Below are positions 29,500 to 32,496 of a stretch of 64,000 nt of DNA, piece after piece (position 1 is the stretch's first letter; every line of letters begins with the position of its first letter). Location of the stretch: positions 591,137 through 655,136 of the forward strand of contig NZ_CP021106.3 of the NCBI RefSeq assembly GCF_000355765.4, read 5' to 3'. This stretch comes from Nitrosospira lacus (GTDB taxonomy: Bacteria; Pseudomonadota; Gammaproteobacteria; Burkholderiales; Nitrosomonadaceae). The notes below the pieces were generated by a model that was given only the letters and a program-made list of their open reading frames with translations, did no database searches and was not told where the DNA came from. A program made the translations under genes and the position numbers.

Positions 29500-30225
29500 A
29501 TGGCCGGTCATAGCAAGTGGGCGAATATCAAGCACAAGAAAGCCGCGCAGGACGCCAAGCGCGGCAAAATTTTCACCCGGCTCATCAAGGAAATTACCGT
29601 CGCCGCGCGGCTCGGCGGGGGCGATCCCAACAGTAATCCGCGGTTGCGTCTGGCTGTCGACAAGGCTTACGAGCAGAATATGCCCAAGGACAACGTCGAG
29701 CGTGCAATCAAGCGCGGCAGCGGCGATCTGGAGGGCGTGAATTATGAAGAGATACGTTATGAAGGTTACGGTATCGCCGGTGCGGCCGTACTGGTCGATT
29801 GCATGACTGATAACCGCGTGCGCACGGTCGCGGATGTACGCCACGCCTTCACCAAGTACGGCGGCAACCTCGGCACCGACGGCTCGGTCGCGTTCATGTT
29901 CAAACACTGCGGGCAACTGCTTTTTGCGCCCGGTACCAGTGAGGACAAGCTAATGGAAGCAGCGCTGGAGGTGGGTGCGGAAGATGTCATCAGCAACAGC
30001 GATGGCAGTATCGAAGTCATTACGGCGCCATATGAATTTGTCGGCGTCAGGGCGGCGCTGGAGAAAGCCGGTTTCAAGGCGGAGCTCGCCGAAGTGACAA
30101 TGAAACCGGCCAGTGAATCCACGCTGACAGGTGACGAGGCGGTGAAAATGCAAAAACTGCTGGATGCGCTGGAAAATATCGACGACGTGCAGGAAGTCTA
30201 TACGACGGCGGTAATTGATGAATAG
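29500..30225 (+). CDS. yebC: YebC/TACO1-family regulator or translation factor
   Basis: It is a 241-residue YebC-family protein. Members have been described as DNA-binding regulators and, more recently, as ribosome-associated factors that relieve stalling. It starts with the invariant [18 protein letters not shown] and keeps RIRLAVDKA-like [36 protein letters not shown] and the GSVAFMF segment. It sits directly upstream of ruvC-ruvA-ruvB, as in many Proteobacteria. Confidence 0.95.
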
Positions 30226-30259
30226 ATTCTTATTCTGCGGGTGAAAAAGGAGTCCATAA

Positions 30260-30778
30260 ATCCGTATTCTTGGCATAGACCCCGGCTTGCGCATTACAGG
30301 GTTCGGGGTCATCGATAAAACCGGCAGCAAGCTGACCTATGTCGGCAGCGGTTGTATCAAGACAGTGGACGGTGAGCTCCCGTCGCGTCTGAAGTCCATC
30401 ATGGACCATCTAAATGAAGTCATCGTGCAGCACCGTCCCGATCAGGTCGCGGTGGAACAAGTATTTGTCAATGTCAATCCGAAATCCACGTTGATGCTGG
30501 GACAGGCGCGGGGGGCCGCGATCTGCACCGCAGTGCTGAATAATCTCGTTGTGGCCGAATACACCGCGCTGCAGATCAAGCAGGCGGTTGTCGGCAAAGG
30601 TCATGCGAAAAAAGAACAAGTGCAGGATATGGTGAAGCGGTTGCTGCAGCTCGCCGGCAGCCCCAGCCCCGATGCAGCGGATGCGCTTGCCTGCGCGATT
30701 TGCCATGCCCATGGCGGACTGGGGCTGGGGGGAATTTCGACAGCGGGCTACCGCATGAAACGAGGGCGGCTGGTATGA
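30260..30778 (+). CDS. ruvC: Holliday junction resolvase RuvC, apparent ATC start
   Basis: It is the endonuclease of the RuvABC resolvasome that cuts Holliday junctions. Counting the ATC at 30260 as residue 1 gives 172 residues, with Asp7, Glu66, Asp138 and Asp141 in exactly the E. coli catalytic positions. The conserved [16 protein letters not shown] begins at this ATC, which is preceded in frame by TAA (30257-30259). AGGAG (30248-30252) lies 7 nt before the ATC, an ideal spacing. The first in-frame ATG/GTG/TTG is TTG 30287, which would lose Asp7. So either a rare ATC start is used, or the start codon was damaged by a small indel or a sequencing error (ATGATC changed to ATAAATC). The stop overlaps ruvA (ATGA). 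Confidence 0.85.
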
Positions 30779-31362
30779 TCGGCAGGATTAAAGGGCTGCT
30801 GGTGGAAAAGTTGCCGCCACTGGTGCTGGTTGACGTGCAGGGTGTGGGATATGAAATTGATGTACCGATGAGCACGTTCTATAACCTGCCCGCCATCGGC
30901 GCGCAAATCACGCTGCATACTCATCTCGTAGTGCGCGAAGACGTGCATTTGCTTTTTGGTTTCGCCACCGAAGCGGAGCGGCAAGCCTTTCGCCAGCTTG
31001 TAAAAATCTCCGGTGTCGGTGCGCGAACCGCGCTGGCTTTGCTGTCCGGCCTGAGCGTAGCCGACTTGCAGCAAGCGGTGGCTGCTCAGGATAGCGGACG
31101 GCTGATCAAGATCCCCGGTATCGGAAAAAAAACCGCCGAACGCTTATTGCTGGAGTTGCGCGATAAGCTCAATGCCGGCATGACGGGCCCCATTGGGGGA
31201 GGAATGCCAACGTCAATGGGTAGCAGCGACGTGCTCAATGCCTTGTTATCTCTGGGATATAATGACCGGGAAGCCAATTGGGCGACGCGGCAGTTACCCG
31301 CAGGCGTTGCCGTATCCGATGGCATACGCCAGGCATTGAAACTTCTATCGAAAGAAAAGTAA
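30775..31362 (+). CDS. ruvA: Holliday junction branch-migration protein RuvA
   Basis: It is the junction-binding subunit that loads RuvB. The 195 residues comprise an OB-fold domain I ([20 protein letters not shown]), helix-hairpin-helix domain II with [19 protein letters not shown] and [19 protein letters not shown], and a C-terminal RuvB-interacting domain III after a Gly/Met-rich linker. ATG 30775 overlaps the ruvC stop. Normal length. Confidence 0.97.
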
Positions 31363-31455: not shown

Positions 31456-32496
31456 ATGATTGAAACCGATCGATTAATCGCCTCCGCATCCGTTTCTCTT
31501 CAGGAAGAAGAGCTGGAGCGAGCGCTGCGCCCCAAGCATCTGAGCGAATATGTCGGTCAGGAAAAAATTCGCGGGCAGTTGCAGATATTTATCGAAGCAG
31601 CAAGGCGGCGCCGGGAAGCGCTTGATCATGTGCTGTTGTTTGGTCCACCTGGCTTGGGCAAAACCACACTTGCCCACATTATTGCCAGAGAGATGGGCGT
31701 GAGCCTGCGTCAGACTTCCGGCCCGGTGCTGGAGCGCCCCGGCGATCTGGCGGCGCTGCTGACCAATCTTGAGCCCAACGACGTGCTCTTCATCGACGAA
31801 ATCCACCGTCTCTCTCCGGTGGTGGAAGAAATTCTTTACCCCGCGCTGGAGGATTATCAGCTTGACATCATGATCGGCGAAGGCCCCGCGGCACGATCGG
31901 TCAAGCTCGATTTGCCGCCATTCACCCTGGTGGGCGCCACCACGCGCGCGGGCATGCTGACCAACCCATTGCGTGACCGCTTTGGCATTATTTCGCGGCT
32001 TGAGTTTTATACCGTGGAAGAGCTGACAAAAATCGTGACGCGCTCAGCGGGGTTGCTGAATGTGGAAATTTCGACGGATGGGGCGTTGGAAATCGCGCGC
32101 CGCTCGCGTGGCACGCCGCGCATTGTCAACCGCCTGCTGCGGCGGGTGCGCGATTTCGCTGAAGTCAAAGCCGACGGTTACATCACCCGGCCGGTGGCTG
32201 ACGCGGCATTGATCATGCTGGATGTGGATCTCCTTGGCCTGGACGTGATGGACAGAAAGCTGCTGCTGGCCGTCATGGAAAAATTCGGTGGGGGACCGGT
32301 GGGCGTGGATAATCTCGCTGCCGCCATCAGTGAAGAGCGTGGCACCATTGAAGATGTGCTGGAACCGTACCTGATCCAGCAGGGCTACATGAAGCGCACG
32401 CCGCGCGGCCGCATGGCCACGGTCATCGCCTATCGGCATTTCGGCATGGCGCTGCCAAAGAATGGGTTGAGCGGAGAGCTGTGGGAAGATCAATAG
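31456..32496 (+). CDS. ruvB: Holliday junction branch-migration helicase RuvB
   Basis: It is the AAA+ motor that drives branch migration with RuvA. The 346 residues include [12 protein letters not shown], Walker [14 protein letters not shown] (about 63), Walker [14 protein letters not shown], sensor 1 [11 protein letters not shown], arginine finger LRDRFGI, and the C-terminal winged helix ending [15 protein letters not shown]. It lies 93 bp after ruvA in the same direction. Confidence 0.98.

Follow-up and report, generated by a model that had tools for sequence, protein, structure and literature searches.

Where does translation of ruvC begin in Nitrosospira lacus? In the 64,000-nucleotide stretch of DNA analysed here (the window), this gene carries no in-frame ATG, GTG or TTG ahead of the codon for its catalytic Asp7. 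The window belongs to a genome of 3.26 Mb, assembled as one contig; among named bacteria, its closest relatives are Nitrosospira, Nitrosovibrio and Nitrosomonas. The gene follows yebC and precedes ruvA and ruvB (Table 1), and its opening codons are ATC CGT ATT CTT GGC ATA GAC (I-R-I-L-G-I-D). An AGGAG motif (30248–30252) is separated from the ATC by the 7-nt spacer TCCATAA, which ends in an in-frame stop. The original prediction had the frame begin at ATC 30260 directly after this TAA, with AGGAG 7 nt upstream, and named TTG 30287 as the only in-frame canonical start, at which Asp7 would be lost; the sequence agrees, this TTG (codon 10) being the first canonical codon in frame. Because the TAA directly precedes the ATC and the TTG comes only at codon 10, no canonical start is usable without losing essential sequence. 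From the comparison of ruvC loci described below, we estimate a probability of about 0.88 that translation of ruvC begins at the near-cognate codon AUC at 30260 and that nearly all Nitrosomonadaceae have retained an AUC or AUU start.

Table 1. Features of the ruvC locus, in window coordinates.
Feature	Position	Strand	Basis
yebC (YebC/PmpR family), gene 5' of ruvC; stop TAG 30223–30225	29500..30225	+	NF001030, 361 bits
Shine–Dalgarno sequence AAGGAG, 7 nt ahead of ATC	30247..30252	+	sequence; duplex -8.2 kcal/mol
TAA, in frame, adjoins ATC on its 5' side; excludes an N-terminal extension	30257..30259	+	sequence, family loci
ATC, proposed near-cognate ruvC start (read as fMet)	30260..30262	+	family codon counts, tree counts
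ruvC (172 codons plus stop) with intact catalytic residues	30260..30778	+	TIGR00228, PF02075, 1hjr
GAC, catalytic Asp7	30278..30280	+	1hjr alignment
TTG, codon 10, first in-frame canonical codon; a start here loses Asp7	30287..30289	+	sequence
ATGA, ruvA start overlapping the ruvC stop (TGA 30776–30778)	30775..30778	+	sequence
ruvA	30775..31362	+	TIGR00084, 195 bits
ruvB, after ruvA	31456..32496	+	NF000868, 538 bits

The identity of the product is clear from two protein family models, TIGR00228 (193.3 bits, cut-off 100.65) and PF02075 (185.9 bits, cut-off 22.2), while the score against a second model, NF000711, is slightly below its cut-off (162.2 versus 163). PF02075 has a single match in the whole genome, which is ruvC. 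Residues 3–152 align without gaps to residues 3–152 of the E. coli RuvC structure (PDB id: 1hjr), and D7, E66, D138 and D141, which we take to be the catalytic residues, have the same numbers in both proteins. This coincidence of numbers had been put forward as an argument for the ATC start. The numbers do coincide, but the argument is weaker than it seemed: E. coli ruvC starts ATG GCT ATT ATT CTC and the numbering of 1hjr omits the initiator Met, so that the E. coli ATG aligns with the window TAA and the window ATC aligns with Ala1. The match therefore makes the ATC homologous to a structural residue and is, by itself, no proof of a start. What favours the ATC as a start is the presence of an aligned ATG, GTG or TTG at the same codon in 25 of 60 loci from other families, together with the pattern across the family. 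The E. coli K-12 gene encodes the same enzyme and occupies the same place after yebC; it differs in having its ATG one codon earlier and in that ruvA and ruvB are apart from ruvC, beyond yebB and yobI.

Initiation at TTG 30287, the first in-frame canonical codon, would yield a RuvC without Asp7 from a gene that is decaying or inactive. This is hardly credible, because the residues of codons 1–9 (IRILGIDPG) are nearly invariant in 122 family loci, a TTG is present at codon 10 in only 58 of them, and the gene encodes the single RuvC of the genome within an intact ruvCAB run.

The family survey covered 125 Nitrosomonadaceae genomes; a RuvC match was found in 122, and every one of these 122 loci was read. 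In the remaining three genomes, a protein search, repeated with a family model, found no RuvC match. Codon 1 is ATC in 70 loci, ATT in 47, ATA in two, and ATG, ACT and ACC in one each, which gives ATC or ATT in 117 of the 122. The suggestion that the gene uses a very rare start codon is thus backed by the 122 family loci. A conserved ATG at the same position in relatives, which the original prediction had named as evidence against it, was looked for, and just one locus with ATG turned up. The same start is common to independent isolates and metagenome-assembled genomes, for example, Nitrosospira multiformis Nl18, Nitrosovibrio tenuis Nv1 and Nitrosomonas oligotropha Nm75. In view of this, we give next to no chance to a sequencing or assembly error, for which nothing speaks beyond the oddity of the start itself. 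The other explanation offered earlier, that an indel in the organism or its assembly destroyed a canonical start, does not hold, since the nearest relatives have the same ATC preceded by other bases than TAA (...CAGCGT ATC in locus L003 and ...CAGCCT ATC in L004). As a separate observation, genome G069 of the same family (group g3, 2.9 Mb, 2 contigs, 99% complete) gave no RuvC match with either the protein or the family model and no RuvA match with the window protein, the latter in a search without a positive control; this is either a true loss of ruvCA or an assembly gap.

Start codons further upstream have to be considered for the family as a whole. In 98 of the 122 loci the stretch from the upstream stop to codon 1 has no in-frame ATG, GTG or TTG and, with the ATG locus set aside, 97 lack any canonical start up to and including codon 1. 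In 8 of these 97 loci the distance to the upstream in-frame stop is 0 or 1 codon, and in 31 it is at most six codons. The remaining 24 loci do have an in-frame canonical codon upstream, as do 29 of the 60 loci from other families, and Ile1 could be an internal residue of an extended RuvC there. As a general explanation this is very unlikely: such a start is impossible in the window, where TAA adjoins the ATC, it has no codon to use in the 97 loci, and canonical codons upstream do not exceed the background, being no commoner in frame (27 of 837) than out of frame (71 of 1470, with the last 12 nt excluded). Moreover, in 12 of the 24 loci (L005, L009, L013, L014, L021, L117, L127, L128, L131, L138, L144 and L167) codon 1 is ATC, ATT or ATA, and the Shine–Dalgarno (SD) duplex ahead of it is stronger, by at least 1.4 kcal/mol, than the duplex ahead of the closest canonical codon upstream. 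Threonine codons occupy position 1 only in L126 (ACT) and L187 (ACC), each of which has its own in-frame upstream canonical codon.

One Nitrosomonas subclade may be a genuine case of an upstream start. TTG is found at codon -7 in L184, L185, L187, L191, L196 and L200, and at codons -5 and -6 in L192. The SD ahead of codon 1 is weak in these loci (-1.7 to -4.9 kcal/mol), and the ruvC start of all seven may have moved to the upstream TTG near the yebC stop, although the SD ahead of the TTG is also weak (-1.1 to -6.2 kcal/mol). The locus with ATG at codon 1, L194, is the sister of this subclade on a quick tree.

The infC gene, which encodes initiation factor IF3, served as a yardstick for the reading of near-cognate starts. 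Matches were found in 59 of the 61 genomes searched and 30 loci were read. ATA is present at the codon aligned with the infC start of the window genome in all 30 (L204, at 1477–1479, and L206–L234); 28 of these lack an in-frame canonical codon upstream, and the other two, L213 and L215, have a TTG. The method thus recognises near-cognate starts. The base rate of such cases was obtained from 58 conserved genes of the window, 15 of which were flagged by an automatic rule. In eight of these, the flagged stretch overlaps a neighbouring gene. Among the other seven, which were judged by eye, only ruvC has conserved protein sequence ahead of its first canonical codon; the other six show conservation of a leader or an SD, or have poor alignments.

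The anti-SD of the genome's own 16S rRNA, GGATCACCTCCTT, is ordinary. In the 98 loci with no upstream canonical codon, an SD match of at least 6 nt lies within positions -25 to 0 of codon 1 in 65 and one of at least 5 nt in 81; the eight control windows gave 0 to 13 and 0 to 34 of 98, respectively. The modal spacing in the alignment, between the last G of AGGAGG and codon 1, is 7 nt. The SD is strong and well placed in most loci and absent or weak in a minority: two of the 98 have no match and 15 have a match of only 4 nt. The median duplex energy ahead of codon 1 is -9.0 kcal/mol over all 122 loci versus medians of -1.6 to -6.5 kcal/mol in six control windows. It is -9.3 kcal/mol in the 97 near-cognate loci versus -5.4 kcal/mol for the 25 canonical codon-1 starts of the order's other families (Mann–Whitney p 7e-8, a value that gives the direction only, as the loci are related). 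In the ATG locus L194 the duplex energy is only -2.5 kcal/mol. This is what a weak start compensated by a strong SD would look like.

The SD region of many relatives contains a second candidate, the GTG of an AGGTGA motif. In 68 of the 98 loci there is a canonical codon 8 nt ahead of codon 1, in most cases this GTG, and ruvC genes with a GTG-x-x-Ile start are present in other lineages (L107 and L110). Translation could then begin out of frame at the GTG and shift into the ruvC frame. We regard this as highly improbable: in 19 of the 97 near-cognate loci, the window included, the 18 nt ahead of codon 1 are free of canonical codons in all three frames, and the nearest GTG of the window (30241) is 19 nt before the ATC, 5' of the SD and in a frame unlike that of the GTG at 8 nt. 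The distance of the GGTG is also variable (8, 9 or 11 nt, and 20 nt in one locus). Furthermore, the GTG lies inside the SD as it does in Streptomyces sigR, where, according to the part of PMC5472188 that concerns this gene, experiment excluded it as the start. We have considered that the AGGTGA motif could descend from a GTG that was once an in-frame start, of the GTG-x-x-Ile form present in other lineages, and was put out of frame by a 1-nt deletion.

Outside the family, the comparison took in 60 ruvC loci belonging to 45 further families of the order. Forty-five of them (L255–L299) represent one locus per family, hand-picked among the matches listed; the other 15 (L300–L314) are extra loci from the same families, several of which were picked for short open frames. 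In addition to the 25 loci in which codon 1 is canonical and the 29 with a canonical codon upstream, there are six with neither, a rate (6 of 60) biased by that choice; among the one-per-family loci the figure is 4 of 45. All six loci without a canonical start have ATC or ATT at codon 1, versus 11 of the 29 with an upstream one (Fisher p 0.008), and the SD energies of the six range from -5.9 to -8.6 kcal/mol (p 0.027). Within family f26, the same spot is occupied by ATG in L276 and ATC in L312. So, as far as sequence comparison can tell, near-cognate ruvC starts would recur in the order, with Nitrosomonadaceae as the case in which the state has become fixed in nearly the whole family. The loci of other betaproteobacterial lineages in which only ATC or ATT is available as a ruvC start are L084, L087, L285, L291, L297, L298, L303 and L312.

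Why such a start persists is a separate matter. Codon 1 reads ATC in 57, ATT in 39, and ATA and ATG in one each of the 98 loci that have no canonical codon upstream. In the same genes ATA accounts for one of 97 isoleucine codons at position 1, for 85 of 98 at Ile6 and for 16 of 98 at Ile3. On a quick tree of 121 family loci (L203, a fragment, was left out), parsimony places about 14 changes between C and T at codon 1, one change to ATG, one to ATA and two to threonine codons. At 40 fourfold-degenerate sites, changes from a pyrimidine to G number 180 and those to A 145, relative to 346 changes between C and T. These ratios predict 7.3 changes to ATG and 5.9 to ATA at codon 1, compared with one of each seen; the Poisson probabilities of at most one change, 0.006 and 0.019, are approximate, as they come from parsimony counts on a quick tree with saturated sites. 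Under the same approximation, 7.9 changes involving ATA would be expected from eight other isoleucine columns (P 0.003), and removal of the loci with an upstream canonical codon leaves 12 changes between C and T and an expectation of 6.2 gains of ATG compared with the one seen (P 0.014). This comparison of genomes suggests that the near-cognate ruvC start is kept for a reason.

The start may, on the other hand, be real and merely tolerated, having been fixed in an ancestor, rescued by its strong SD and left to drift with no regulatory value; this would rival the reason for the start and not the start itself. RuvC is required in small amounts only, the compensation by the SD is visible, and the sporadic near-cognate-only starts of other families occur as if such starts were easily tolerated. 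The deficit of ATG and ATA beside some 14 changes between C and T stands against it. We consider mere tolerance a serious possibility that falls somewhat short of an even chance.

The mechanism that we propose begins with the strong and well-spaced SD, which would position the ribosome at AUC 30260. The initiator fMet-tRNA would pair with the AU of this codon, leaving the third base mismatched, and the resulting N-terminus, fMet-Arg-Ile-Leu-Gly-Ile-Asp, would equal that of ATG-started RuvC elsewhere in the order. IF3 disfavours weak third-base pairs, as stated in the pertinent section of PMC10158994. Initiation would really take place at the AUC, would be weak, and would probably be subject to discrimination by IF3 as it is for infC and sigR. 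The near-cognate state is presumably as old as the family, and the start may have been kept since it holds RuvC low relative to RuvAB. Of the 121 family loci in which the ruvC stop was found, 75 have ATGA and 30 have GTGA at this stop (105 together). It is natural to guess, by analogy with sigR, that RuvC is limited relative to RuvAB, and it is plausible, in line with the rarity of ATG, that the rare start could keep RuvC at a low level. In its full form, the proposal is that selection against AUG keeps AUC and AUU at codon 1, that IF3, itself apparently started from AUA in the same genomes, sets RuvC low relative to the coupled ruvA and ruvB and thereby links junction resolution to the state of translation, and that this trick was adopted several times in the order. 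We put this forward tentatively, as possible but on balance doubtful.

Genes with near-cognate starts are a known kind. PMC5472188 states that very few are known in bacteria and remarks that gene finders assuming ATG, GTG and TTG miss them. A change to AUU was reconstructed in one of 61,358 ancestral AUG starts in PMC5622118, a measure of how rare such a state is. The best-known example is infC, which starts with ATT in E. coli and ATC in Streptomyces and is autoregulated through IF3 (as summarised in PMC5472188). Both infC and ruvC are core genes with a conserved near-cognate start. They differ in that infC is controlled by a feedback loop through its own product and has ATA at the aligned start in the family loci read, whereas ruvC is a recombination gene and keeps ATC or ATT. 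We know of no feedback loop through the product of ruvC. The pcnB gene of E. coli, which starts with AUU and encodes a low-abundance enzyme, is comparable in these respects, although it is another gene in another lineage. Hecht et al. 2017 reportedly measured initiation from all 64 codons.

The closest parallel is sigR of Streptomyces. The account of this gene in PMC5472188 describes a GTC start, a strong SD that holds a misleading GTG, repression by IF3 and an ATGA overlap with rsrA, and reports that a canonical start upsets the balance of the two proteins. As far as that account goes, the likeness to ruvC extends to the strong SD with a GTG inside (in most relatives, though not in the window), the conservation of the start, in sigR across a genus, and the ATGA overlap with the next gene in a setting where the stoichiometry of the products is at stake; the ruvC–ruvA–ruvB run is formally alike. 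The differences are that sigR starts with GTC, encodes a sigma factor and has a start proven by experiment, whereas the ruvC start is deduced by comparison. Among the matches listed from titles and abstracts of the open-access literature, we found no report of a near-cognate ruvC start in Nitrosospira or elsewhere. The use of such a start by ruvC and its upkeep throughout a family appear to be new.

To judge by its sequence, ruvC looks like a new and conserved addition to the small group of genes that begin at near-cognate codons. The occurrence of one gene in near-cognate, ATG and TTG-extended versions offers a natural series in which to ask why weak starts persist. For the ammonia oxidisers themselves, a practical consequence is that automatic annotations may truncate ruvC or miss it.
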